IMG/VR virus record: IMGVR_UViG_3300009431_000157
Span: 1 to 20,217 of that record
Reading direction: 5' to 3' (one strand)
Origin: a virus
DNA length: 20,217 bases
Below are positions 1 to 17,000 of this stretch, one piece after another; positions within the stretch are counted from its first letter, which is position 1; every line of letters starts with the position of its first letter. Position numbers and translations under genes: made by a program. The notes beneath the pieces were generated by a model, which saw only the letters and a program-made list of their open reading frames with translations, did not search any database and was not told where the DNA came from.

Positions 1-2
1 TT

Positions 3-902
3 AAAACTTCTTCAGGAGATCAAACCGCAAACCTTAAATCATTGAAGGGTTATAACATTTGGTTGTTAGATGAGGCAGAGGAATTAGTTGATGAAAAGAA
101 GTTTGATGATATTCAATTATCATTTAGACAAAAAGGAAAGCGTAATGTAATCATATTGATATTAAACCCTTCTAATAAGGATCATTGGATATACAAAAAG
201 TTCTTTGAAAGAAAAGGTGTTAAACCTAGTTCTAATTTAATAAAAGACAATGTTTGTTATATCCATACAACGTACTTAGATAACTATCACAATTTAGATC
301 AATCTTTTATTATTGATGTGAAAGGAATCAAAGAGAATAATCCTAAAAAGTATGAACATCAAATATTAGGAGGTTGGATCGATAGGGCAGAAGGCGTTAT
401 TTATGATAATTGGGAGTATGGTAAATTTGAAGAAAGTACGCTTCATGGCTATGGTCTGGATTTTGGTTTTAGCATTGATCCTACTGCACTTGTTGAGGTA
501 AGCATAAGTAAGAAGAAGAAAGTTATTTATGTGAGGTTGCATACTTATAAACTTTCTCTTACAACGGATCAAATAAGCACTGAGTTAAACATCTGCAAGG
601 ATAAGTTAATTGTTGCTGATAGTGCAGAGCCAAGACTAATAAAGGAGCTTAAAAACAAAGGGCATAATATAAAGGCATGTAAAAAGGGTGCAGGTAGTAT
701 TACGGGTGGTATTGATGTAATTAGAAACTATAAGCTTATAGTAGATAGTGAAAGCACTGACATAGGTAAAGAGTTAAATAATTACATTTGGCATGACAAG
801 AAATCAAGTACTCCTATTGATGATTACAATCACGCTTTAGATGCATTGAGGTACATTTGCACGGATTTATTAAATAAGAAAAAAACATATTCATACGCAT
901 AA
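3..902 (+). CDS. Phage terminase large subunit (5'-truncated by window edge)
   Basis: ATP-driven DNA-packaging motor and headful/site nuclease acting at the portal of the prohead. The frame is open from base 3 with no stop, so the N-terminal part (Walker A) lies outside the window; the TTG at 42 is an internal Leu codon, not a start. Visible in the 299-residue remainder: a Walker B-like strand followed by acidic residues (IWLLDEAEE), then the C-terminal RNase H-like nuclease fold with a first acidic strand (GLDFGFSIDPTA), a middle acidic strand (IVADSAEP) and a final acidic helix (DDYNHALDALRY). This arrangement is typical of the Terminase_3/PBSX-type large subunits. Its stop codon overlaps the portal ATG by one base (TAATG), as expected for a packaging operon. 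Confidence 0.93.
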   Translation, partial: KTSSGDQTANLKSLKGYNIWLLDEAEELVDEKKFDDIQLSFRQKGKRNVIILILNPSNKDHWIYKKFFERKGVKPSSNLIKDNVCYIHTTYLDNYHNLDQSFIIDVKGIKENNPKKYEHQILGGWIDRAEGVIYDNWEYGKFEESTLHGYGLDFGFSIDPTALVEVSISKKKKVIYVRLHTYKLSLTTDQISTELNICKDKLIVADSAEPRLIKELKNKGHNIKACKKGAGSITGGIDVIRNYKLIVDSESTDIGKELNNYIWHDKKSSTPIDDYNHALDALRYICTDLLNKKKTYSYA

Positions 903-2230
903 TGAAAATATTTGGTTTTGATATAACAAGACATAAAAAAAAGTCAATAGTACTCCCTGAAAAATCAGACGGAGGTTTAGTATTGAATAATAAACAGGTT
1001 TACACTTGGGTAGATGGTGCATACATTAAGATTCAAGATGTAACAGATTCAAGGCAGTTTATTCGATATGGGTATAATGATTTAGATACTGTTTACGCAC
1101 CGATCAATAAGAAATCAGATGCATTAAACCGTATTAAGTTGGAACTTTGTGATAGAGAAGGCAATAAGATAGAATCACATCCTTTATTAGATCTACTTAA
1201 AAAGCCTAATTCACGTCAAACATGGTCAGATATTATTGACCAATATTGCGGTTATTTCTACATGACGGGTAATTTCTACTTGTATACTGAAAGGTTTGAT
1301 AATACAAGTGAGCCAACTAATTTGTATGTATTTCCTTCTCAATATGTATCAGTGCTTACCGATAACTATTCGGGTGCAATCTATACACCTGAATTAAAGG
1401 GATATGAGCTTGAATTAAATACAACTACTTACCCTGCCTCAGTTGAGGACATGATACATGTTACAGCACCTTCATTATCTTATGAACAGGACGCTGATTT
1501 ATATACGGGAATGTCACCAATGCGACCTTTGTCACGTAAGTTAAGATTGAATAACGGAACACAAACAGCAGCAATTAAGTTACTAGAAAGCGGCGGTTTG
1601 CGCGGCATGTTTACTGCTGATCCTGCAACCGTTAAAGAGGATGCACCTGCAATACCCAAAGAAATGCTGACTAATTTAAAGGATGATTTCAATAGGCAAT
1701 ATCAAGGTATTGAAAACGTTGGAGATGTTATGTTCACTTCTATTCCTCTTAAATGGCAGGCTGTAGGAATGAATCTTGTAGATATGCAGTTGTTTGACAG
1801 TGAAAAGCTAACTCTTACGAGTGTGTGTAATATTGTGAATATTGATCCTTTATTGTTAGGACAAAAGGAAAACAGCTCATACAATAACATGCGTACAGCC
1901 CGTCAAGATCTTTACTTAACATCATGTATACCTTTCTATGAAAAGCTTGTAGAGCACTTAAATAATAAGCTTGTAGCGATGTATCAAGATTTAGTTAGGC
2001 AGGGTGCTTATTTAAAGCTTAATTACTCTGAGATTCCAGAAATCCAACAATACAGAATGGAACAAGCCAAGAGTTTACAGCCATTTAAGACTGAATATAC
2101 TACTAATGAGATTAGAGAGAAGTTGACCGGTGATGGTGCTTTAGATGACGAATTAGCAGATTTACCGATATACGAAAGAGATAACATTCTAGGTCGTTCA
2201 CTTGTAAATATTCCTTTTGAAGATGAATAA
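902..2230 (+). CDS. Phage portal protein (HK97-type)
   Basis: Dodecameric ring at one capsid vertex through which DNA enters and to which the tail connector docks. The 442-residue length fits the HK97-like portal family (about 400-450). The position directly after the terminase, the motif region SDIIDQYCGYFYMTGNFYLY near residues 110-130, the segment VTAPSLSYEQDADLYTGMSP, and NIDPLLLGQ followed by YNNMRTARQDLY (portal clip/stem region) are characteristic of the family. Start ATG overlaps the terminase stop. The C-terminal tail is acidic and overlaps the next gene by 8 bases. No anomalies seen. Confidence 0.92.
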   Translation: MKIFGFDITRHKKKSIVLPEKSDGGLVLNNKQVYTWVDGAYIKIQDVTDSRQFIRYGYNDLDTVYAPINKKSDALNRIKLELCDREGNKIESHPLLDLLKKPNSRQTWSDIIDQYCGYFYMTGNFYLYTERFDNTSEPTNLYVFPSQYVSVLTDNYSGAIYTPELKGYELELNTTTYPASVEDMIHVTAPSLSYEQDADLYTGMSPMRPLSRKLRLNNGTQTAAIKLLESGGLRGMFTADPATVKEDAPAIPKEMLTNLKDDFNRQYQGIENVGDVMFTSIPLKWQAVGMNLVDMQLFDSEKLTLTSVCNIVNIDPLLLGQKENSSYNNMRTARQDLYLTSCIPFYEKLVEHLNNKLVAMYQDLVRQGAYLKLNYSEIPEIQQYRMEQAKSLQPFKTEYTTNEIREKLTGDGALDDELADLPIYERDNILGRSLVNIPFEDE

Positions 2231-2936
2231 AAAGTACGAACGCATAAGAATGCAGAAGGAACGTAAGTTCACAAAAGCTTTGCAACGTACAATGATGAAG
2301 GCATTGCAGCCTGTATTAGAGGATAATACAATGAATCCTGATTTGTACGATTATGAGTTAGTCACTAAGCAAATGACAGATTTATATTATGATACTTCAA
2401 AGCGTTTTTTCACTGATACTTACAAGGAACTAGAGGTTAAAAAGAATCTGTTAGATGACATTGCAAGTACTTATGCTGAAAGAATAGAGAATTGGCTTTT
2501 GACATACGGAGCTAATAAGGTTCAATCTGTTAACAAGACAATAAAGCAGAAGTTAAGCAATATCATAAACGATAATTTCCAAAAGGGAACAAGTTTTAGT
2601 GATATGGCCAAGGAAATTACGAGCCAATTTAGGACCTTTTCAAGAAGTAGAGCTTTAACTATTGCACGTACCGAAACAACTGCTAGTGCAGGGCGTGGAG
2701 CATGGGAAGGTGCTCAAGTTGTAAGTGGTTCAGTATTGAAAAATTGGATTGTTAATCTTGACGGAAAAGAAAGGCAAACACATAGATTGGCAGGGTCGCA
2801 ATATAAGGAAGGTATACCCCTAAACGATCCTTTTATTATAGGTGGAGATACAATGATGAGTCCAGGAACAGGAAACAAACCTGAAGAAAATTGTAATTGC
2901 AGGTGTCAAATGGGGTTTGTAAGAATAGGGGATTGA
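2223..2936 (+). CDS. Phage head morphogenesis protein (MuF / SPP1 gp7-like)
   Basis: Minor capsid protein packaged with the head, usually bound to the portal. The 237-residue product has a basic N-terminus and an N-terminal helical half, then the MuF signature in the C-terminal half: RALTIARTETTASAGRGAWE, followed by a K-W segment, LDGKERQTHRLAG, and an end with GGDTMMSPGTGN then NCNCRCQMGF, where the Cys-rich NCRC motif and the TH.LAG histidine are family hallmarks. I chose the ATG at 2223; an in-frame TTG at 2217 would add two residues. The gene overlaps the portal stop by 8 bases. Followed by a 58-nt AT-rich gap with no convincing signal. Confidence 0.88.
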   Translation: MNKKYERIRMQKERKFTKALQRTMMKALQPVLEDNTMNPDLYDYELVTKQMTDLYYDTSKRFFTDTYKELEVKKNLLDDIASTYAERIENWLLTYGANKVQSVNKTIKQKLSNIINDNFQKGTSFSDMAKEITSQFRTFSRSRALTIARTETTASAGRGAWEGAQVVSGSVLKNWIVNLDGKERQTHRLAGSQYKEGIPLNDPFIIGGDTMMSPGTGNKPEENCNCRCQMGFVRIGD

Positions 2937-2994
2937 TAAAGAATATTTATAGTAAATAAAAAAGTATAAACAAAATTTATTAAATTGCAGTATT

Positions 2995-3672
2995 ATGATT
3001 GAAATTTGTAAAAATACAGCATTAAGAGTTGCAGATATAGACGAAAACGAAGGCATTGTAAAGGTTTATTTTGCCTCTTTTGATAACGTAGATTTGCAAA
3101 AAGATGTGATTCAAAAAGGTGCATTCACTAAAACCATTAAGGAGAGAGTGCCAAAAAACATGATCAAGTACGTTTGGAATCATGATATGAGTAAGCCAAT
3201 GGGACTTATCAAAGAAATGGGCGAAGATTCACACGGCCTTTGGTCAGTTAACCAATTGTCTAAATCAACATTTGGCCAAGATAAGTTAATTGAATATCGT
3301 GAGGGGGTTATTGACCAACATTCATTTCAAGGTTATGCAGTTAAGCAGAAAAGCCAATTAAGGAAAGATGAAACTGTAAACGTACTAACTGAAATCATGA
3401 TGTTTGAAGGAAGTGGGGTTATGCTTGGAGCTAACCCACAAACACCAACAATATCAGTTAAATCATATCAATCATATAAGATGCATTTAGAGAAGTTGAA
3501 CCAACTTATAAAGAATGGTGATTTCTCGGATGAATATTTAAAGAATTTAGAAAAGCAGATAGGAGAAGTTACAGCAAGTATTCGAGCCGTTTCTAACACT
3601 CATGAACCACAAGAAAGTAATGAAATCTCTATCGAAGAAATACAGAGTATATTTAAAAATAAATTATCATGA
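2995..3672 (+). CDS. Prohead maturation protease (HK97 gp4-like, peptidase S78/U35)
   Basis: Serine protease that cleaves the capsid delta domain and itself during prohead maturation. The 225-residue protein has the family pattern: an N-terminal strand region with D-rich loop (FDNVDLQKDVIQKGAF), the catalytic His in YVWNHD (H63), and the catalytic Ser in GVIDQHSFQGYAV (S110), followed by the E-rich strand around residues 133-138 and LGANPQTP. The C-terminal third (about 160-225) is helical and charged and could act as a scaffold-like tail. Starts with ATG; its TGA stop overlaps the capsid-gene ATG (ATGA), consistent with translational coupling. Confidence 0.9.
   Translation: MIEICKNTALRVADIDENEGIVKVYFASFDNVDLQKDVIQKGAFTKTIKERVPKNMIKYVWNHDMSKPMGLIKEMGEDSHGLWSVNQLSKSTFGQDKLIEYREGVIDQHSFQGYAVKQKSQLRKDETVNVLTEIMMFEGSGVMLGANPQTPTISVKSYQSYKMHLEKLNQLIKNGDFSDEYLKNLEKQIGEVTASIRAVSNTHEPQESNEISIEEIQSIFKNKLS
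3655..3671 (+). repeat. Leader copy 1 (17-bp exact repeat at major capsid start)
   Basis: The sequence aaaaataaattatcatg ends in the start codon of the major capsid gene. The identical 17 bases occur at 6662-6678 ending in the start codon of the major tail gene. It has no Shine-Dalgarno core; in Bacteroidota A/T-rich unstructured leaders are known to drive initiation, so this is probably a strong translation-initiation region (inference). Confidence 0.6.
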
Positions 3673-4850
3673 GTGAAGTAAAAGAGTTCATTGAAAAATC
3701 TTTGGATACGCTTAAAGCTAATATTGAAGCGGATAAACAAGATCTTTCAAAAAGTGTTGAAGAGTTAAGACTAACGAACACTGAGGAAATTGAAAAGCTT
3801 TCAAAAGGCTTTAAGAAGCAAGAGGAGACAATCGTTTCATTGCAGAATCAATTGAAGCAAACCAATTCGGGCAATGTATCAGAGTTGGCTAAATCAATTT
3901 TAGATTTTGGGAAAAAGCATGAAGGAGTTGCAAAAGCATTCTTGGCAGGGGAGAAAATGCAAGTGCTTTCAAAGGTTATTACTATCGGTAGTAACTTTAC
4001 TGGACAAGTAACACGCTTTGACCAACGTCCTGGTATTGCACCGATTCTTTCACGTAGTGTTAGATTACGTAATGTATTGAGAAATACAGTAGCAACTTCT
4101 AACATTTACAACTTTAGAAAGCATACATCTAGTACGGGTGCTGTTGCTCCTGTTTTAGAAGCTACTACAAAGTCTATTCGTGAATATAACCTTGCTAACG
4201 TTGAAGTACCAGTAATTAAAATTGCAGGTTATTCAGATGTTTCAATGGAGGCATTAGATGACACTGATGACTTCGAAGCTTTCTTAACTTCTAAATTGAG
4301 AGATGACTATTTGGACACTGAAGATACTCAAATCTTATACGGTTCGGGTGTTGCTCCAAACATGGAGGGATTGAATATCACTTCATTAAAGGCGGCTGAT
4401 ATTACGTCATTTGACCCAGTTACAGCTCCTCAAAAATGGGATGCAATTATCGCTTCAAGATCAGTGTTAACAGGTAGAGAGTATGAGCCAAGTGTAGTAC
4501 TTTTGAACCCAGCTGAATATGAGTCTATGACTGTTACTAAAGGTACAGATGCTCACTACATTGCTAATGAATTGGTGTTTACGGGTGCTACAGCGATGGT
4601 GAGAGGCATGACTATTATTAAAACTACTGCTGTAAATGCAGGTGAGTTTTTCGTAATGGATGCAAGAGCTGCGGAATTAGCAATTCGTAAGAGTGTTACT
4701 GTTGATCGTTCAGATGAAAATGGTACAAACTTTATTGATAACATCTATACATTCCGTATTGAAGGGCGTGCAGCGTTAGCGAAAATCTACCCTGACATGG
4801 TTTTCTCTGATACATTTGCGAATGTTATTACTGCTATCACAACACCTTAA
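3669..4850 (+). CDS. Major capsid protein (HK97 fold)
   Basis: Main shell subunit. 393 residues: residues 1 to about 68 form a charged coiled-coil delta domain expected to scaffold assembly and be cleaved by the upstream protease; the remainder is HK97-fold sequence with the recognisable E-loop/spine region (VLRNTVATSNIYNFRKHTSS), the VEVPVIKIAGYSDVSMEALDD stretch split over residues about 178-197, the P-domain (LRDDYLDTEDTQILYGSG) and the A-domain end (FVMDARAAELAIRKSVTVD). ATG start overlaps the protease stop. The 17 bases ending in the ATG are identical to those of the major tail gene at 6662-6678. A hairpin terminator follows 15 nt after the stop. Confidence 0.93.
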   Translation: MSEVKEFIEKSLDTLKANIEADKQDLSKSVEELRLTNTEEIEKLSKGFKKQEETIVSLQNQLKQTNSGNVSELAKSILDFGKKHEGVAKAFLAGEKMQVLSKVITIGSNFTGQVTRFDQRPGIAPILSRSVRLRNVLRNTVATSNIYNFRKHTSSTGAVAPVLEATTKSIREYNLANVEVPVIKIAGYSDVSMEALDDTDDFEAFLTSKLRDDYLDTEDTQILYGSGVAPNMEGLNITSLKAADITSFDPVTAPQKWDAIIASRSVLTGREYEPSVVLLNPAEYESMTVTKGTDAHYIANELVFTGATAMVRGMTIIKTTAVNAGEFFVMDARAAELAIRKSVTVDRSDENGTNFIDNIYTFRIEGRAALAKIYPDMVFSDTFANVITAITTP

Positions 4851-4865
4851 TAAATTAAAAATCAT

Positions 4866-4894
4866 GGGAGGTAGTTAAATTCTATCTCCCTTTT
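4866..4894 (+). terminator. Rho-independent terminator after major capsid gene
   Basis: Stem GGGAGGTAG (4866-4874) pairs with CTATCTCCC (4882-4890) over 9 bp with one G-U wobble, 7-nt loop, followed by TTTT. Position 15 nt after the capsid stop suggests partial termination that sets the capsid to downstream-gene ratio. Confidence 0.75.
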
Positions 4895-4907
4895 AAATAA
4901 AAACAAT

Positions 4908-5093
4908 ATGAACGTTAAAGTATTAGTATCCTTTTCGGATCTTCGATTGAATGGAGGCAAGACATTGAAAGTAGGGCAGGTAATTCCTGTTCAATTATCG
5001 AACATTGAAACAAAAGCAAAAACAGAAGAGGCGATTGCTTCACTTGTTAAAGCTGGATTGTTAGAAGTTGTAAAAGACACAAAGAAAAAATAA
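4908..5093 (+). CDS. Small conserved-position head-module protein, function unknown
   Basis: 61-residue protein with ATG start, between the capsid gene's terminator and the connector gene; its TAA is directly followed by the connector ATG. The sequence is alternating hydrophobic/polar with a mixed beta start (VKVLVSFSDLRLNGGKTLKV), a middle Gln/Leu segment and a C-terminal helix rich in Lys (SLVKAGLLEVVKDTKKK). I do not recognise a domain. Short proteins of this kind are often found between capsid and connector genes in siphoviruses, where some are decoration or connector-accessory factors, but nothing here identifies one of these roles. Confidence 0.7.
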   Translation: MNVKVLVSFSDLRLNGGKTLKVGQVIPVQLSNIETKAKTEEAIASLVKAGLLEVVKDTKKK

Positions 5094-5639
5094 ATGCGTT
5101 ATCCAATTCGACAGCCATATAGATACAAATCATGCCTTGTAGGTGTTGAGAAAATAAGAGTTAGTGACTTAGAAACTATCTTACCTATTTCGGCTATAAA
5201 AGAGTATATGGCTGTTGATGACGATAACAATGCTGTAGATTCTTTGATCACTTCATTACGTGCAAGTGCATTTGATGATGTAGAGAAATATTTACAAAGG
5301 ACATTAGGAGAGAATAACATGATTGTTAATTACTCTTCTATTTCCGAGTCCGAACTATTACCGTTTGCTTATGCTGATGCAATTAATTCAATTGAGGTTG
5401 ACGGTGACGCTTTGGATGTATCTCTTTACGACATATTTAGTGGACGTATTCAGTTTAGCAATAACTTAGGCTATCAAGGTAACATTACAATATCATACAA
5501 TGCAAAAGGGCAGATAAGCGAGAATGTATTAACCGTTATTAAGCGTTTAATTTGGATTGATTACGACAATCAAGAGTCCGAAGAAAAACACAAGATAATG
5601 AAGATGTTAAGGGCTGATAAAATACGAGGTTGGATATGA
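5094..5639 (+). CDS. Head-tail connector protein (HK97 gp6-like)
   Basis: Adaptor ring that docks under the portal. 181 residues; residues about 20-75 match the family start, a helix-rich segment (AIKEYMAVDDDNNAVDSLIT, then ASAFDDVEKYLQRTLG), followed by a beta-rich middle and a closing helix (NVLTVIKRLIWIDYDN). The pattern of a short aligned helix pair followed by sheet, and the position between capsid and head-closure genes, support the Phage_connect/gp6-like assignment. Starts directly after the preceding stop and overlaps the following gene by ATGA. The N-terminal 20 residues are basic and Tyr/Arg-rich. Confidence 0.8.
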   Translation: MRYPIRQPYRYKSCLVGVEKIRVSDLETILPISAIKEYMAVDDDNNAVDSLITSLRASAFDDVEKYLQRTLGENNMIVNYSSISESELLPFAYADAINSIEVDGDALDVSLYDIFSGRIQFSNNLGYQGNITISYNAKGQISENVLTVIKRLIWIDYDNQESEEKHKIMKMLRADKIRGWI

Positions 5640-5956
5640 TGTTCAGAGACAAAGTAAATATTTACCGTTATACAACTACATCAGATGGTGCAGGAGGTGT
5701 TATTGAATCAAAGACATTGTATAGAGGCGATACATGGGCAAATGTAAGTGAAACGCTTTCTAGTGTACAATTGGAAAATGGAGAATGGATCAAGGCAAGA
5801 GCTTTTGAGTGTCGTTTGCGATATAGAGAGGATCTTCCAATCGCTACGAATGACGTATTAGAGTTTAAGGGTTTAAACATGGTTGTAAAATCTGCTACTT
5901 TGTACAATAAGGATAGAAATAGATTTCAACTGTTAACATTTCGTAGTAATGAGTAG
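5636..5956 (+). CDS. Head closure / head-tail joining protein
   Basis: About 106 residues, all-beta by appearance, matching the phage head-tail joining family (SPP1 gp16 / HK97 gp7-like): early FRDKVNIYRYTTTSDGAGGV, then GDTWANVSE and the ending NKDRNRFQLLTFRSNE, where short proteins of this family typically have a GG..E....W motif and a closing strand with R..QL. I take ATG 5636 as start since it overlaps the preceding stop (ATGA); ATG 5639 is an equal alternative and TTG 5630 is less likely. It overlaps the following gene by 8 bases. Confidence 0.78.
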   Translation: MMFRDKVNIYRYTTTSDGAGGVIESKTLYRGDTWANVSETLSSVQLENGEWIKARAFECRLRYREDLPIATNDVLEFKGLNMVVKSATLYNKDRNRFQLLTFRSNE

Positions 5957-6281
5957 TTTTAAAGTTAATTTCGATTTCAAAGATATTGAAAAGAATGTTT
6001 TAAAGAAAGTAGGCAAGGAGTTAATTACAACTGCTTTGTTAATTTCTACTGAAGCAAAAAGAACTGTGGCTTTTAAAACTGGATTCCTTCAAACATCAAT
6101 AGGAGTTGATCAAAGATCAGAAGAAGTCGCGGTTCAAGCTTTAGCTAATTACGCTAGTTTTGTAGAATTCGGAACAACCAAACAGAGAGCACAGCCTTTT
6201 TTATACCCTGCCTACAAGAAAGAAACAAAAGGATTACTCAAAAGAATAACCAAGATAGTAGAAGATGAAGCTTCCAAGTAG
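5949..6281 (+). CDS. HK97 gp10-like neck / tail-completion protein
   Basis: 110 residues matching the HK97_gp10 family: an N-terminal strand (FKVNFDFKDIEK), a long helix with alanine-rich EAKRTVAFKTGFLQTSI, the segment YASFVEFGTTKQRAQPFLYP, which carries the family's VEFGT...QPFL signature, and a terminal helix. Such proteins sit at the head-tail interface and are needed for joining. ATG start; the gene overlaps both neighbours (8 bases upstream, 17 downstream), in line with the tight morphogenesis operon. Confidence 0.88.
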   Translation: MSSFKVNFDFKDIEKNVLKKVGKELITTALLISTEAKRTVAFKTGFLQTSIGVDQRSEEVAVQALANYASFVEFGTTKQRAQPFLYPAYKKETKGLLKRITKIVEDEASK

Positions 6282-6669
6282 TGACATAAGACAAGCGGTT
6301 TATAATAGCCTTCTAGTTTTGGGTTTACCGGTCAATTCGGGTACTCAACAACTATGGGATACGCCATGTTATTATATTGGTAATATTATTTCACTACAAG
6401 AGGATTGTAAAACTATTTTTGGTAGTGATAACGATATTATAGTAGAATCAGTAATTGATTTTGACGGAACTAACGGATCTTGGCAGGATGTAGACAATAA
6501 TGCTTCTGATGCTTGTGAACAGCTAACAACACAGCCTTTAAGCTTGAACGATAACTACAGTATTATTGTTAGATTAATCAATTCTAATCAATTAGAGGAA
6601 GATTTATCAAACGGTAAACTTAGGTACAGAAGAATAATGAATTTTAGAATATTGTTGCAACAAAAATAA
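6265..6669 (+). CDS. Tail terminator / tail completion protein (DUF3168-like)
   Basis: 134 residues, in the gene order slot (after the gp10-like gene, before the tube gene) of the ring protein that stops tail-tube polymerisation and joins the head. Visible features: an N-terminal helix (DIRQAVYNSLLVLGLPV), then PCYYIGNII, a D-rich strand (VIDFDGTNGSW) and a last strand (YRRIMNFRILLQQ). The pattern and size fit the lambda gpU / DUF3168 type; sequence similarity alone is weak, so the position is the main evidence. ATG start inside the end of the preceding gene. Confidence 0.7.
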   Translation: MKLPSSDIRQAVYNSLLVLGLPVNSGTQQLWDTPCYYIGNIISLQEDCKTIFGSDNDIIVESVIDFDGTNGSWQDVDNNASDACEQLTTQPLSLNDNYSIIVRLINSNQLEEDLSNGKLRYRRIMNFRILLQQK

Positions 6670-6678
6670 ATTATCATG
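6662..6678 (+). repeat. Leader copy 2 (17-bp exact repeat at major tail start)
   Basis: The sequence aaaaataaattatcatg ending in the start codon of the major tail gene is identical to 3655-3671 at the major capsid start. See that entry. Confidence 0.6.
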
Positions 6679-7107
6679 GCAGAAGTAAAAACACAAGGCG
6701 ATTTAATATTTCTTGAGCTTTCTGAGGATGGCACAACGTTTATTAAGTTTGGATGTGCCACAAGTAACGGATTTGAAAGAACATCTACTACATCAGACTC
6801 ATCATGTAAAGAAGATGGAGTGTATAATGATCCAGAAGTCATTAAAATTGGTGCGACTCTTACAATGGAAGGGTTGTTATTAATTGACGACACAACATTT
6901 GTTTGGAATAATCACCAATTAGATGATTGGATGCAAGCAAGAGCGATTCTTGATTTTAAATATGGCAAAGACGGTACAGGGGAAATAAACTATACTGGTA
7001 AATGTCAGATTAGTGATCTTGCAGATACAGCACCCAATGAAGAGACAGCTTCATGGACATGTACATTGAATGTTAAAAAGGGGTGGACAAAAACACCTAA
7101 TCCTTAA
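6676..7107 (+). CDS. Major tail (tube) protein
   Basis: 143 residues, the hexamer-forming tube subunit through which DNA passes. The protein is beta-rich with the TP901-1/phi13-type tail protein pattern: a Gly/Leu start (GDLIFLELSEDG), then GATLTMEGLLLIDDTTF (central strand pair), WMQARAILDFKYGK, and the ending ETASWTCTLNVKKG, where the last strand closes the sandwich. The same GATLTMEGLLL-like motif recurs in two downstream tail genes (11139-11558 and the start of 11562-13790). The position, size and shared leader with the capsid gene support high expression. A hairpin terminator follows. Confidence 0.85.
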   Translation: MAEVKTQGDLIFLELSEDGTTFIKFGCATSNGFERTSTTSDSSCKEDGVYNDPEVIKIGATLTMEGLLLIDDTTFVWNNHQLDDWMQARAILDFKYGKDGTGEINYTGKCQISDLADTAPNEETASWTCTLNVKKGWTKTPNP

Positions 7108-7113
7108 ACAATA

Positions 7114-7142
7114 TAGGGTAAGTACTGCCCTACTCAATTTTT
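7114..7142 (+). terminator. Hairpin terminator after major tail gene
   Basis: TAGGGTA (7114-7120) pairs with TGCCCTA (7126-7132), 7 bp including one wobble, 5-nt loop, then a T-run at 7138-7142 after a short spacer. It lies 6 nt after the tail-tube stop. Weaker than the 15101-15127 terminator, so read-through is likely. Confidence 0.55.
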
Positions 7143-7146
7143 ATAA

Positions 7147-7186
7147 TTGAAATCTAATCCCTATTTCGTATATTTACGTTATAGGG
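7147..7186 (+). promoter_or_regulatory. Candidate promoter inside a 28-bp inverted repeat
   Basis: TTG (7147-7149), 19 nt, then TATATTTA (7169-7176), one base off the Bacteroidota TAnnTTTG -7 element. The -7 element lies in an interrupted palindrome: CCCTAT (7159-7164) pairs with ATAGGG (7181-7186) and CGTA (7167-7170) with TACG (7175-7178), with two mismatched bases between. It may be a promoter with an operator, or an RNA hairpin followed by TATTTTTA; both readings suit a spot before the chaperone gene. Confidence 0.4.
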
Positions 7187-7223
7187 TATTTTTATATTAT
7201 TTAAAATTTAATAGATTTCATTT

Positions 7224-7529
7224 ATGAGAAAAATAACATTTGAAATTGCGGGGAAAGAGTTTTATAACACTGCAAAACACATTGAACGTGCAAGGTTAAA
7301 AGTAAATGATGAATTGAAAATTGAGGAAGAAGGATTTTACAAGACTGGTGAACTTTGGGCGTTTCATCTTCTAAAAGAGCAAATCACTTTTGAGGAGTTT
7401 GAAGAGTGGATGTTTACATTAAATAATGAAGAGTATAGCAACCTTACAACATTTGCATCAAGAATGCAGAACGAGTTGGGAAAGCTCATAACTCATTATA
7501 TGCAACCGCAATTAAAACAGGGCGAATAA
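7224..7529 (+). CDS. Tail assembly chaperone, G-like zero-frame product
   Basis: 101-residue helical, acidic protein just upstream of the tape measure gene, the position of the lambda gpG chaperone that coats the tape measure during tail assembly. It begins with a beta hairpin (RKITFEIAGKEFYNTAKH) and continues with charged helices. At codons 86-87 the frame passes through GGGAAAG, and its own stop (TAA at 7527-7529) follows 14 codons later, so most ribosomes would make this 101-residue form, and a minority the longer fusion described at 7484-7882. ATG start with a candidate promoter about 50 nt upstream. Confidence 0.8.
   Translation: MRKITFEIAGKEFYNTAKHIERARLKVNDELKIEEEGFYKTGELWAFHLLKEQITFEEFEEWMFTLNNEEYSNLTTFASRMQNELGKLITHYMQPQLKQGE
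7478..7484 (+). other. Programmed -1 ribosomal frameshift site (GGGAAAG)
   Basis: Zero-frame codons G|GGA|AAG form a perfect X XXY YYZ heptamer and are the same heptamer used in the lambda G-T frameshift. The -1 frame is open from 7439 to 7882 across it. A 12-bp stem begins four bases downstream (next entry). Confidence 0.85.
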
Positions 7530-7882
7530 AACCTCATGAGTATAATGAGTTAACCTATGAGGAAATAAAGATTATAATAGAAGGTTACAATGAAGAGCAA
7601 GAAATGTTAAGTTATAGAACAGGTCTAATTGTTAGTGAGTTGGTAAACATTTTCAAGGATAATAAGAAGCAACCTAAACGCTTCACTCCATTTGATTATT
7701 TTCCATTGGATATATTGAAATCAAAATTAAGCACGGAAGAAAGGGCAAATATAGATTTAACAAGTGGAGAAAAAACAGCCTTGTTCATGTGGAATAAAGG
7801 AGGTAAATATAAAGAGTCTTGTTTAAAAAATTATCCTAAATTCGTAGAAAGTTTAAAAGAAAAAGGATTTATAAATGGCTAA
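7484..7882 (+). CDS. Tail assembly chaperone, T-like part made by -1 frameshift
   Basis: After slippage at 7478-7484 the ribosome continues in the -1 frame at GCT (7484) and runs without stop to TAA at 7880-7882, adding 132 residues to the first 87 for a predicted 219-residue G-GT fusion. The frame has no ATG until 7604 (start MLSYRTGLIV), so an internal start would give only 92 residues and leave a gap of 74 bases between coding regions. The T part contains a charged segment then FTPFDYFPLD and an ending helix (KNYPKFVESLKEKGF). By analogy with lambda gpGT, it would bind both the tape measure and tail tube. It ends 8 bases inside the tape-measure gene. Confidence 0.82.
   Translation, partial: AHNSLYATAIKTGRIKPHEYNELTYEEIKIIIEGYNEEQEMLSYRTGLIVSELVNIFKDNKKQPKRFTPFDYFPLDILKSKLSTEERANIDLTSGEKTALFMWNKGGKYKESCLKNYPKFVESLKEKGFING
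7489..7552 (+). other. Frameshift-stimulating stem-loop
   Basis: TAACTCATTATA (7489-7500) is the exact reverse complement of TATAATGAGTTA (7541-7552), giving a 12-bp perfect stem with a 40-nt loop; spacer to the slippery site is CTCA (7485-7488). The zero-frame stop lies within the loop. The stem is AT-rich, so its strength is modest. Confidence 0.65.
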
Positions 7883-9398
7883 TGAAATTGGAAGCATAGA
7901 GGTAGTATTAGAGCTAAATGAAAGCGATTTCGCAAAGGGTTTAAAAACTTCTGAAAAGAGTTTAAATAGCTTTGAGAAGTCAGCAAAAAAAACTACTGCT
8001 AAAACAAGTCAGTCATTTAAACAAGGCTTTAATCAAATTGCTAGTGCAGGAAAGCAATCAATTGGAGGACTTTTACAAGAAATTCCTTTAGTTGGACAAG
8101 CTGTTTCAGGAATTTCAACCGCAACAACTACACTTACAGGCTCTACAGCAGGTTTAACGTCTGCAATGGGCTTGTTGGGTGGTGCTGTTGCGGGTGTTGG
8201 CGCTGCTGCTGTTGCTTTAACGGGTGTATCTCTTGTTTCTTATTTTACAGGCACTCAAGACGGTGCAGATTCATTAGCAAAAACAATGAATCGAGTTGAC
8301 TTTGCATTAGGTGCTGTTCAAACGGGCTTTCAGAACCTTGGCCGTGCTATTGCTAATGCTATTCCTACATTTGATTTAGAGGATATCTTACCACAGGATA
8401 TTATTACTCGTGCGGATGAGTTAACAAGAGCAACAAAGGAAGCTGAAGAGTTTAGGCTTAATAATACTGTTAAGGTTGCTAAGTTAGAAACTGAAATTGC
8501 AAACCAAATTTTCAAAACTAGAGAACTTAATAGGCCATATGAGGAAAGAAAAGAAGCTTTAGATGAGGCAGGAAGATTGATTCAGCAACAGTTTGCTATT
8601 GAACGACAATTATTGCAAAATCAATTAGAAGTAGTTCAAGCACAGAATAATAATACTGAGTCATTAAGGCAAGATTTGCAGCTTGAAAAGGATTTAGAAG
8701 CACAGATTGAACGCAAGAACAAAGCACAGATTCAAGCGTTAAAGGAGATTCAAAACCGACAAAATGAGGCTTACAATTCAGAGCAAGCAAGAATTAATAA
8801 ACTTGCAGCAGAGGAAAAGAAAAGAGATGATGAAAGAGTAAAAGTATTTACAGCAAGTGCAGAGCAAGCATTAAAAAACTATGAATCTGAACAAGCTATT
8901 ATAAAAAATCAAACTCAAGCATATGCTCAAGCTTTTAGTGGTATTGGTGAGATTGCTAAAAGTGCTTTTGGACAAGCAACAACAGCAGCAGAGCAATTTG
9001 CACAACAAATGGGTGGTATTGTAATTGATTTAATTGCACAACAATTTGGTGCATCAATAGCTAATGCCATTACAGGTGCTACAGGTGCGGCAGCGGCAGC
9101 AGGGCCATTTGCACCCGCAGTACTTCCTGCAACAATAGCAAGTATGACAGGTGCGGTTATATCTGCATTTGCTTCAATACCTTCATTTGCTTCGGGTGGT
9201 ACATATAGACATTCTGAGGCAGGCCAAAGTGAAAACATTATACCTACAAACAGAATGCCTGAGGTAATGGCAGGGTTTGGACAACAAAATGACAGACCTA
9301 TTGTAGTATCTGTAAATGGTAAAGCTTTGTTAACTGAGATGGTTAGACAGTCCCAAAGTGATTTTAGAACACAAGGAAATAGCACACAATGGCGATAA
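7875..9398 (+). CDS. Tail tape measure protein
   Basis: 507 residues; sets tail length and is ejected into the host envelope. Evidence: first residues of tape-measure type (IEVVLELNESDFAKGLKTSE), a long hydrophobic Gly/Ala segment at about 97-125 (predicted membrane-inserting), a Gln/Glu/Lys coiled-coil region at about 180-345, a second Gly/Ala-rich hydrophobic stretch at about 395-440, and a C-terminal tail with ASGGTYRHSEAG, the SGG...G.. motif common at tape-measure ends. Using the rule of about 1.5 angstrom per residue, the tail would be roughly 75 nm, i.e. a rather short siphovirus tail. ATG start overlaps the chaperone stop. Confidence 0.88.
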   Translation: MANEIGSIEVVLELNESDFAKGLKTSEKSLNSFEKSAKKTTAKTSQSFKQGFNQIASAGKQSIGGLLQEIPLVGQAVSGISTATTTLTGSTAGLTSAMGLLGGAVAGVGAAAVALTGVSLVSYFTGTQDGADSLAKTMNRVDFALGAVQTGFQNLGRAIANAIPTFDLEDILPQDIITRADELTRATKEAEEFRLNNTVKVAKLETEIANQIFKTRELNRPYEERKEALDEAGRLIQQQFAIERQLLQNQLEVVQAQNNNTESLRQDLQLEKDLEAQIERKNKAQIQALKEIQNRQNEAYNSEQARINKLAAEEKKRDDERVKVFTASAEQALKNYESEQAIIKNQTQAYAQAFSGIGEIAKSAFGQATTAAEQFAQQMGGIVIDLIAQQFGASIANAITGATGAAAAAGPFAPAVLPATIASMTGAVISAFASIPSFASGGTYRHSEAGQSENIIPTNRMPEVMAGFGQQNDRPIVVSVNGKALLTEMVRQSQSDFRTQGNSTQWR

Positions 9399-11146
9399 GT
9401 ACAAAAACATATTATGTAAGAGGTCAAGCATTGACTTTGCAAATTGAAAGTGATTCTACTATTGATTTTGATGTTATTAATTCTAATCTTAACTATGAAG
9501 TTCAAGAAGAGGATAACCCTTTTAATTATACAATAGGTGGTGTTTATACTGTTAATATTATTTCAAATGTATTATTTAGTAATATAACTAATTGCACTCT
9601 TTTTTATGGTTCTGAAATTTGGTTCAAAGGAATATTCAAAACTGATGAAGAAAGGGAAAGTTTAGAAACTTACAAATATTTTAGAACTATAAAATTTAGT
9701 GATGTTTTAAGCGACTCGCAAGATAGAAGTTTTAATAAAAGATATTTTGAATATGCTAATAGTATAAATTACCCCTTTCAAAGAAAAAATATTGCATTTC
9801 GTTTTTTTGATGGTGAATTAATTTCACAAATAGCAACTGGATTCAATGAAAATATAACTTTAGATAGCAACGTTGATTCTAATGGTACTATATTGACATT
9901 ATCAAATACTCAATTCGATGCAAGATCTTTATTTCAACAAGATTTAAATACTAGAGATTTGTTAGGGCAAATAGCGTTTACATATGGATCAAGGGCAAAC
10001 GCTGTAGCTGATGAATTGAAATATGTAGATGTAACAAAATCAGTTAATTTATATAATGTGATAAATATTGATAACTATACGCCTAACTCAAATGTTTACA
10101 AAACTCAAAATTTAGATAAAACTATTGAATATAATATAGATTCTGATTTAGATAATGTAATATTTAACAAAGAATTTGTTTTAGGCAATGCTGATGGTTC
10201 TGATATATTTGGTTTTTACTCTTTTCCTGATGATGACAATTTATATCAAAGTTCTTTTAATATAGACCCTTCTGACAAAGAGGTAAGATATGCTACCGAT
10301 CCGTATGGTTGTATTTCTAACGATGGCTATCCTAGTGGTTTTTTTGCACAGCAACAAACATTTAATATAAACGCGGAGTTTGATTTAACATTTGATGAAA
10401 CAAGAAGCTTTGATTTAAAAGTAAGATTAGTATATACTGATTTTAATGAAAGTACTAACAATTATAATTTTTGGTATCTTCAAAGTGATGGAAATTGGTT
10501 TTATGTTGGTAATACATTTCCTACAACATCTCCAATTAGCAATTCTAATGACACTCTTCCTTACACTAATATTTTTAACTTTGATGTAAATAACACAAGT
10601 TTTAATAAAGAAACTGGAGGTAGAACATTAAGTTACTCTTTTGATATAGATTCTAATCAAATTACTGGTACGCCTACGCCGCAAAACAAAGGTTCTTATA
10701 GTTTACAATTCGCTATGCTATTGAGAGATTTCTCAGGAGGTACAGCAGGTATGGAGACTGTATCTTTTACAAATGCTTCTTTAAATGTTTTAAGACCTTT
10801 CAGAGCAACAAGGCGAAAATTTCAATATGATACTTTTAGCGATGTTGCTTTAAGATCGTATCAAAGGGAAGCAGGTATAACAGAAGGCAAGGCGTATGGA
10901 GATGATATTTATACAACAAATGGAATCATATTACTAAATGGAGTTGTATTAAATGAAGTATATCTATTAGACTATATAAATTCTTATGATAAAGTAGATT
11001 ATATAGAAATACAAATAGTTACAAGTGAAAAAATAACTCCTATTTCTAGAATAGTATATGAAGGAAAAAATTATTTTGTTCAAAAAATGGATTATGATCT
11101 ATCTAATGGTATTTGTACATTAACGATAAAAGAATGTAATGAGTAG
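9389..11146 (+). CDS. Tail-tip (distal tail / hub) protein, family uncertain
   Basis: 585 residues immediately after the tape measure and overlapping it by 10 bases. In siphoviruses this slot holds the distal-tail (Dit) or hub/baseplate protein. The sequence is beta-rich, poor in charged clusters and unusually rich in Asn, Asp, Ser, Thr, Phe and Tyr; several strand-loop repeats (e.g. FDLTFDETRSFDLKVRLVYT) suggest stacked beta-sandwich domains. A C-terminal segment (SRIVYEGKNYFVQKMDYDL, then LTIKECNE) resembles a baseplate-type domain end. I cannot name the family from sequence; tail-tip role is inferred from position. Base use is more AT-rich than the head genes. Confidence 0.6.
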   Translation: MAISTKTYYVRGQALTLQIESDSTIDFDVINSNLNYEVQEEDNPFNYTIGGVYTVNIISNVLFSNITNCTLFYGSEIWFKGIFKTDEERESLETYKYFRTIKFSDVLSDSQDRSFNKRYFEYANSINYPFQRKNIAFRFFDGELISQIATGFNENITLDSNVDSNGTILTLSNTQFDARSLFQQDLNTRDLLGQIAFTYGSRANAVADELKYVDVTKSVNLYNVINIDNYTPNSNVYKTQNLDKTIEYNIDSDLDNVIFNKEFVLGNADGSDIFGFYSFPDDDNLYQSSFNIDPSDKEVRYATDPYGCISNDGYPSGFFAQQQTFNINAEFDLTFDETRSFDLKVRLVYTDFNESTNNYNFWYLQSDGNWFYVGNTFPTTSPISNSNDTLPYTNIFNFDVNNTSFNKETGGRTLSYSFDIDSNQITGTPTPQNKGSYSLQFAMLLRDFSGGTAGMETVSFTNASLNVLRPFRATRRKFQYDTFSDVALRSYQREAGITEGKAYGDDIYTTNGIILLNGVVLNEVYLLDYINSYDKVDYIEIQIVTSEKITPISRIVYEGKNYFVQKMDYDLSNGICTLTIKECNE

Positions 11147-11558
11147 TCAAAATATACATATAGGAAAAAATATTATTTTATGGTCGTCAATAAATGGTGA
11201 TATTGCTGCACAAGATTCAGCGACATTTAACATAAATAATGAGCTTATTGAGTTAGCTGCTAATTCTGATGGATTTAGAAGATATACAACTGGTAAAAAA
11301 GATGCTACAATATCATTAAGTGGTTTATTGTTAATCAATCCTGAATTATTTGAAGTAGATTATTCTATAAAATCTTTATTTGATGTAATTACAAGAAATG
11401 TTAATGAAGATTTTTTTATAAGATATGAAATTACTCAAACGGGCGAAAAGATAGAAATACCTGTTTTGATCACCTCATTCGTACTGAATGGTGATAGCAC
11501 TGGTTACGCTACTTATTCAGCAGAATTTAAAGGAAATGGCACACCAATTTGGAGTTAA
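11139..11558 (+). CDS. Tail-tube-like protein, second copy (tail-tip paralogue)
   Basis: 139 residues, ATG start overlapping the previous stop by 8 bases. Its middle has ATISLSGLLLINPELF, closely matching ATLTMEGLLLIDDTTF of the major tail protein, in the same position along the protein, followed by the FIRYEITQTGEKI and the closing strand YATYSAEFKGNG. The pattern is the tail-tube/baseplate beta-sandwich (TTP-like) fold. Since a complete tube gene already exists at 6676, this second member probably makes a ring in the tail tip or an adaptor to the following fibre gene. Similarity was judged by eye. Confidence 0.65.
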   Translation: MSSQNIHIGKNIILWSSINGDIAAQDSATFNINNELIELAANSDGFRRYTTGKKDATISLSGLLLINPELFEVDYSIKSLFDVITRNVNEDFFIRYEITQTGEKIEIPVLITSFVLNGDSTGYATYSAEFKGNGTPIWS

Positions 11559-11561
11559 AAT

Positions 11562-13790
11562 ATGGCACTACTAGGATTTGAAAGGTATATATACATTGAT
11601 GATGTATTTATCTCATGTGTTCAGGAAAGTGATTACACAAGGGATCAAACTATTAATGAATATAGAGTAAAAGAAAGATTTAATGATACCATTAAAGGTA
11701 TTAGAAGGGATCAAATAGATGAACAGACATTGACATTGAATATAAGCGGTCTGATATTAGAAAATTACTCTAATGACATTAACCTAACTGACTGGTTGAA
11801 ATCAAAATCTACTCGTAAGGTAGAGATTAGATATAAAGATGAAATTGGAGCTAAGAATATAGTATTCAATGGATTCATAGAGAGCTTTAATTCGTCTGAT
11901 ACTGATTTGCAAAACTTTACAGCAACGATAACTTCAACTGGTGAAATTGTAGATGGCTTTGTATTACCTATTCCATTATTCACATTTCAAACACAAAAGA
12001 TAGGTGAGATTAATATAACTACAAGTGGTACTAATGATTTCCGTGACGGCAATGGTAATGTTATCACAATGCCTTATACAAGGCAAGAGGGAGATTCTGA
12101 GTTCATTAATATGTATGGTTCGCCTTTAGCTTCACTTACAGATTTAACAGCTGTAAATTGTCAACTAATAGGTGACTATGATTTCACAGCATGGACAACA
12201 TTGCAAAATGCTAACTTAGAGGGTAATGCTTTTAATAGTGCAAAATTTACAGATGTTCAGTTTAACACCGGTACTTTAAATATTATTAACAGCTTTGTTC
12301 AAGGTGAAAGGTTTACTGATTTCATTATTCAATTTGATACCGATATGAGTACACCTAGAAGCTCAAGTTTACAAGTAGGTACAATTGATGATCCTTTGTT
12401 ATTAGACCCAGGTGATACAACAGGGACTTATGCAGCTATACAATCATTAATAAGTAAGAGTTGGAGCGTTAACGTAACGGCTAATAGGTTATTTACTGCT
12501 ACTATTGGGGCAAATGGTAATATAACACCAACAGCTATTTTTAACGGTGTCGGCAGTGTGGTTTATACTTTAAATGGTAATACTGTGAGTAATGTATCAA
12601 ACACAGATTCAAACGCAAATACTTTTAGTGTTAATTCTAATGATTTACTTGTATGTTATTTTAGCAACAATACTAATGATATATCAACACTTGACTCTAT
12701 AGAATGTAATGATTGTAATATTGAATCGTTTATTTTTGATGAATTTTTCAATTCAAGTGATAAAATATTAAATGCTAAGAGAAATGTTTATACCCAAAAT
12801 TCAATTAATATTTTAAAATCTTATCTTGATTTTGATACTAACAATAGTGATCCTTATACATCAAATGTGACGGTAAATATAAACTCGCTTCAAGCTGGAA
12901 ATCTTTACACTGAGGCAGATTATATAAGTCAAATAATGAACTATCAAAATAGTGATAGATTACTTTGTTACTTTATGAAAGTTGAATTGTTTAATAGTAG
13001 TACTATTACAAATTATGAACAAGAAGGTAATTTTGTGATAGAATCTAAAGATAATGATATAATTTTTACCAGCCAACAAATCAAAGGTACTTATCAAGGT
13101 TTCAGAGGTCATAAAATAACAGGTTCATCAAATACACAAGTAAATGATGTAGTGTTAAAAAATGGTACTTATGAACGTATACAATTTATATCATGTGGAA
13201 TAACAAATAACTTAGACTTCAGCGATATTACATTAAATACTCAAGGTTTCAGATTTCAAAATAATGTATCTATTAATCAAATAACCGGATTAAGTGGCGT
13301 TGAAAATAATAGATTTGAATTTCAAAATTGTGGTTATCAAGGTGTTTTAGATCTATCTAATTTAATTTTGAATACATCATCATTTATTGCTACGAATAGC
13401 GGATTAACAAATGTAATTTTTGGAGGTGGGTCATTAACAGGCAATTTATCTTTAGGTAACTGTAACCTAACTGGGGTATTAGATTTATCAAGTTTAACTT
13501 TGAATATTTCATTGTTAAGAGCGTTTAACAATGGAAATCTTACAAATATAATATTTGATTCAGGAACAATTACAAATGAAATTTCAATAAATAATTGTGA
13601 TATAACTGGGACATTGGATATGACAAATATAAACGTTAATGTGAATGATTTTGATATACGAGGCAATCCAAATCTAACCGAAATAATAGTTAGCAATACT
13701 TCTACTTTGGTTGCAGGTGATATTGATTATGATCAAACTACATTGACAGTTAGAAAGCAAGATGGAACAATAATTTTACAAGTACCTTAA
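11562..13790 (+). CDS. Tail-tip adhesin: tail-tube-like domain plus LRR-like repeats
   Basis: 742 residues. Residues 1 to about 135 repeat the tube-like pattern again (TLTLNISGLILEN, then KVEIRYKDEIGAKNIVFNGF and TATITSTGE). Residues about 185-250 carry short ladder-like repeats (LQNANLEGNAFNSAKF). The C-terminal part, residues 542-722, is four tandem units of 44-47 residues (see repeat entry) with L.G.LDLS.L.LN periodicity, ending in a short strand-rich cap. This looks like a receptor-contacting tail fibre/adhesin anchored to the tail by a tube-like domain. Composition is Asn/Thr/Ser-rich without Cys bridges other than one Cys per repeat. Ends 11 nt before the next gene. Confidence 0.7.
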   Translation: MALLGFERYIYIDDVFISCVQESDYTRDQTINEYRVKERFNDTIKGIRRDQIDEQTLTLNISGLILENYSNDINLTDWLKSKSTRKVEIRYKDEIGAKNIVFNGFIESFNSSDTDLQNFTATITSTGEIVDGFVLPIPLFTFQTQKIGEINITTSGTNDFRDGNGNVITMPYTRQEGDSEFINMYGSPLASLTDLTAVNCQLIGDYDFTAWTTLQNANLEGNAFNSAKFTDVQFNTGTLNIINSFVQGERFTDFIIQFDTDMSTPRSSSLQVGTIDDPLLLDPGDTTGTYAAIQSLISKSWSVNVTANRLFTATIGANGNITPTAIFNGVGSVVYTLNGNTVSNVSNTDSNANTFSVNSNDLLVCYFSNNTNDISTLDSIECNDCNIESFIFDEFFNSSDKILNAKRNVYTQNSINILKSYLDFDTNNSDPYTSNVTVNINSLQAGNLYTEADYISQIMNYQNSDRLLCYFMKVELFNSSTITNYEQEGNFVIESKDNDIIFTSQQIKGTYQGFRGHKITGSSNTQVNDVVLKNGTYERIQFISCGITNNLDFSDITLNTQGFRFQNNVSINQITGLSGVENNRFEFQNCGYQGVLDLSNLILNTSSFIATNSGLTNVIFGGGSLTGNLSLGNCNLTGVLDLSSLTLNISLLRAFNNGNLTNIIFDSGTITNEISINNCDITGTLDMTNINVNVNDFDIRGNPNLTEIIVSNTSTLVAGDIDYDQTTLTVRKQDGTIILQVP
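13185..13727 (+). repeat. Four LRR-like protein repeats of about 45 residues
   Basis: Units at residues 542-586, 587-630, 631-675 and 676-722 of the tail-tip adhesin start with an FIS/FQN/LGN/INN-Cys motif. Units 2-4 share the pattern N-C-x(1-3)-G-x-L-D-(L/M), then a strand with N-x-x-L-T-x-I/V-I/V-F. Four Cys residues occur at the same point in each unit (CGI, CGY, CNL, CDI). DNA copies have diverged, so the repeats are visible only in protein. Confidence 0.7.
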
Positions 13791-16936: not shown

Positions 16937-16986
16937 AATCTAATAGATACTAACTTGATAGTCAAATTGATAATATCTATTAGATT
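16937..16986. repeat. 13-bp perfect inverted repeat
   Basis: AATCTAATAGATA (16937-16949) is the exact reverse complement of TATCTATTAGATT (16974-16986), 24-nt loop, in the gap between the MazG-like gene and the next minus-strand gene. The loop holds a smaller TTGA-TAG-TCAA inverted repeat. No T-run follows on either strand, so it is not a standard terminator. Confidence 0.6.
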
Positions 16987-17000
16987 TTGTGTGTTATAGA

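Follow-up and report, generated by a model that had tools for sequence, protein, structure and literature searches.

Predicted lambda-type −1 ribosomal frameshifting in the G-T tail assembly chaperone genes of a divergent phage

Phage lambda makes two tail assembly chaperones, gpG and gpGT, at a ratio of ~30:1; both attach to the tape measure protein, and the T domain binds the major tail protein (PMC5009743). The G-T frameshift is widely conserved in long-tailed phages (PMC5009743), a general picture established by Xu, Hendrix and Duda (2004), as cited in PMC5009743. The heptamer G_GGA_AAG is highly shift-prone in E. coli (PMC5009743) and is the site used in lambda, HCTV-5, and TP901-1 (PMC5009743, PMC7618472, PMC4493119). 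In the Lactococcus phage TP901-1, which makes gpG and gpGT, GGGAAAG lies at the 3' end of gpG (PMC4493119).

We analyzed a window of 20,217 nt, comprising positions 1–20,217 of the IMG/VR virus record IMGVR_UViG_3300009431_000157. Cellulophaga phages headed the relatives of its portal protein, which together with a GC content of 32% makes a host within the Bacteroidota likely. The portal and major capsid genes were located upstream of two overlapping ORFs, which were themselves placed between the genes for the major tail protein and the tape measure protein, the gene order of lambda-type G and T (Table 1). A tblastn search of annotated phages with the major tail protein, tape measure protein, and next tail protein returned no matches. 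As the first-pass annotation had proposed, the two ORFs are very probably expressed by programmed −1 ribosomal frameshifting as in lambda G-T, with a 101-aa G and a 219-aa GT fusion (87 + 132 aa) as the predicted products. The mechanism is well known and the phage is divergent; we regard the locus as a new but ordinary example. It shares with lambda the heptamer, its phase near the end of G, the −1 direction, and the position of T before the tape measure gene. Unlike in lambda, the T part scored below Pfam thresholds, G belonged to no recognized family, and a 12-bp stem followed the heptamer. TP901-1 differs in infecting another host group and in that its heptamer was tested by mutation, whereas the one described here is predicted from sequence.

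Table 1 Features of the G/T locus and its neighbors in the window.
Feature	Position	Strand	Evidence
Major tail protein (tail tube), upstream neighbor	6676..7107	+	PHROG 1407 E 2.5e-9; Pfam Phage_tail_2 E 5e-5 (just short of cut-off)
Predicted G-like tail assembly chaperone, 101 aa, zero-frame product	7224..7529	+	ORF and position; synteny and frameshift
Slippery heptamer G_GGA_AAG	7478..7484	+	Sequence, phase, chance count
T part, −1 frame after the predicted slip, 132 aa; fusion GT 219 aa	7484..7882	+	Relatives' T profile E 7e-18; tblastn relatives
5' arm of 12-bp downstream stem	7489..7500	+	Inverted repeat search, chance count
3' arm of 12-bp downstream stem	7541..7552	+	Inverted repeat search, chance count
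First start codon in T frame (ATG), within conserved T domain; probably not the real start	7604..7606	+	T profile alignment, relatives
Tape measure protein, downstream neighbor	7875..9398	+	PHROGs 339, 1538, 1535, E 2e-9 to 2e-5

The zero frame of G read TTG GGA AAG at the heptamer, corresponding to the slippery phase X_XXY_YYZ. Two other copies of GGGAAAG were found in the window (7251 and 9654), both outside this phase. Among 5008 in-phase codon positions in the forward genes of the window, 51 carried an XXXYYYZ heptamer and four carried AAAAAAG, GGGAAAG, CCCAAAG, or AAAAAAA; only the one at 7478 opened a −1 frame of at least 100 codons. Given the rarity of in-phase signals in the window, we rejected a chance occurrence of the heptamer. 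The −1 frame was open from 7439 to 7879 with its stop codon at 7880–7882. The first-pass annotation had therefore read the phase, the extent of the second frame, and the identity of the heptamer with that of lambda correctly.

Most ribosomes would read the zero frame to its end and produce the G-like chaperone. We infer that a minority would slip back one base at G_GGA_AAG, probably helped by the stem 4 nt downstream, and would continue to 7879 to give the GT fusion. If the proteins act as in lambda, G would coat the tape measure protein, and GT would use its T domain to recruit the major tail protein.

The −1 arrangement could in principle also result from transcriptional slippage or from a sequencing or assembly indel that split a single gene, since slippery runs in general can mislead polymerases or assemblers. 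However, no homopolymer in GGGAAAG exceeds three bases, a short run by the standards of polymerase slippage or assembly error; the heptamer region was identical in a second contig (IMGVR_UViG_3300013120_000241), and relatives had the same split at different heptamers. On these grounds we rejected both explanations as extremely improbable. The second contig belongs to the same phage and was the only one recovered from searches of viral contigs with single proteins (G, T, major tail protein, and capsid); scans of genome contigs returned no matches. It was 100% identical to the window over 4224–10879 and had 105 mismatches and 21 gap openings over the 12.8 kb that aligned to window positions 1–12847, so the divergence between the two contigs is patchy, as after recombination.

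A profile built from the T parts of relatives, with the window left out, recognized the T frame among all six-frame ORFs of the window at E 7e-18; the runner-up had an E value of 0.66. Homology began at residue 16 of the open frame, which is base 7484 and the first codon after the predicted slip. This onset is 120 bases upstream of the first ATG in the frame, which corresponds to residue 56 and lies beyond an LTxxE core that was invariant in eight sequences. The second ORF thus ran open through the heptamer with no start of its own upstream of the conserved domain. We considered whether T is a plain downstream gene, translated independently from this ATG as a 92-aa protein beside an incidental heptamer, as the presence of the ATG and the open frame from there to 7882 would allow. 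Such a start would delete the LTxxE core, and the stretch between the G stop and the ATG had coding-like GC by codon position (0.50/0.12/0.29). The relatives also had no common start codon there, yet shared the −1 phase and heptamers. Since the T domain begins upstream of the ATG, we rejected an independent start, which is very improbable.

Standard profiles did not recognize either protein of the window. The T part alone scored below the thresholds of Pfam PF06223 Phage_tail_T and PF09550 Phage_TAC_6, whereas its homologues matched both, and Pfam and PHROG scans gave no significant match. The predicted structure of T was of moderate confidence (pLDDT 77) and a fold search with it was weak (best E 0.08). 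G had no family match in Pfam and PHROG scans, including Phage_TAC_11/12 and PHROG 2115, it was not recognized by a profile of the relatives' G parts (E 1.2), and its predicted structure was poor (pLDDT 55). Because G has no family match of its own, we assigned it as a chaperone by its position and synteny together with the frameshift.

A tblastn search with the T frame recovered PV036453, and an alignment of three T parts recovered 14 further contigs from IMG/VR. With Flavobacterium phage 11b, which was picked by portal similarity and gene order and not by T similarity, these gave eight independent lineages besides the window (PV036453/L016, L011/L012, L013-L015, L017, L018/L023, L019, L020-L022/L024, and 11b). 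In 8/8 lineages T followed an ORF of ~100–135 aa and lay in its −1 frame, and seven had a canonical heptamer in phase: CCCAAAC, CCCAAAAAAC, AAAAAAC (two lineages), AAAAAAA (two lineages), and GGGAAAC. The first-pass annotation had named a conserved ATG at the start of the second gene as evidence against a frameshift; the relatives had none. It had also called for an alignment of relatives, which upheld the heptamer phase in seven of the eight lineages; the stem was not common to all of them at the same place. The relatives' T parts matched Pfam Phage_tail_T, the family of lambda gpT, at E 1.4e-7 and Phage_TAC_6 at E 7e-10, the latter in 7/8 aligned T members. Of the five lineages whose G parts were scanned, three matched PHROG 2115 'tail protein'; some G parts had weak TAC_11/12 matches.

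PV036453 (Syntrophomonadaceae phage IMGVR 15540650) was the closest annotated T homologue, at 39.6% over query residues 37–89. It has the same gene order and −1 frame, but its heptamer is CCCAAAC directly before the G stop and the two genes are annotated as separate hypothetical proteins. In phage 11b, the G/T pair consists of gp38 and gp39, again offset by −1, and is followed by a large ORF at the place of the tape measure gene; its heptamer is AAAAAAA, with no strong stem. Both phages have T annotated from an ATG far into the −1 frame, in agreement with the first-pass suggestion that an internal ATG normally causes the T part to be missed. In the annotation of this phage and related ones, G and T should be linked via a −1 frameshift at the heptamer, instead of T being started at the internal ATG. 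The locus also contributes divergent T domains that escape standard profiles and leaves the general picture for long-tailed phages unchanged.

No canonical heptamer was found in the G/T overlap of L011/L012, though the −1 arrangement was the same. The sequence GGCGGCCGCCCTCAGACGCCGGTGGAGTAG was identical in both (L011:3881-4010 and L012:3899-4010) despite variable upstream bases, hinting at an unusual shift site. In Cellulophaga phage phi18:1 (gp56/gp57, L006:24517-24560), the frame of a T-like ORF was +1 (or −2) with respect to that of G, and nine consecutive A occur there. This arrangement may reflect slippage by −2 or +1, or T may start independently at ATG 24517.

The 12-bp stem downstream of the heptamer was perfect, had a loop of 40 nt, and agreed to the base with the first-pass annotation. 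It was the only inverted repeat of at least 9 bp in 7200–7900. Perfect stems of at least 12 bp (span ≤100 nt) began at three of 20,107 positions, namely 7489 and 16937/16938, the latter two from a single repeat, and at a random point a 7-nt spacer window would contain the start of one with a probability of 0.0007. An Rfam scan gave no match. The region downstream of the heptamer (7485–7560) folded into exactly this stem at −14.1 kcal/mol, and in a fold out to 7600 the stem grew longer on the heptamer side, where it contained a bulge (−16.9 kcal/mol). When the heptamer was included, the minimum free energy structure took another register (−17.2 kcal/mol, z −2.7), so the 12-bp stem is expected only when a ribosome covers the heptamer.

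The stem may act as a frameshift stimulator, and its position and length, improbable by chance, argue for a role, as does a perfect 14-bp stem 5 nt after AAAAAAC in L019 (z −8.8, mononucleotide shuffles). A frameshift in which the heptamer alone suffices and the stem has no role is less likely, though a serious alternative. The stem has only two G-C pairs and is worth −8.3 kcal/mol when bare, its 4-nt spacer is slightly below the 5–9 nt usual for stimulators (PMC7618472), and no strong stem directly followed the heptamer in L018/L023, L020-L024, or 11b. L015 had an 8-bp stem 2 nt after the heptamer. With stems present in some relatives and absent in others, the stem of the window appears to be an optional helper, non-randomly placed but not a conserved part of the signal. 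A switch between two registers, the 12-bp stem and the heptamer-pairing fold, in a stem that genuinely stimulates frameshifting is unlikely; if it existed, ribosome density on the message would tune the G:GT ratio.

The L019 region that contains AAAAAAC and the 14-bp stem (L019:3713-3790) folded at −40.6 kcal/mol in 80 nt. The second perfect inverted repeat of at least 12 bp in the window (16937–16990, AATCTAATAGATA / TATCTATTAGATT) was located between two reverse-strand genes and may be a terminator or operator.
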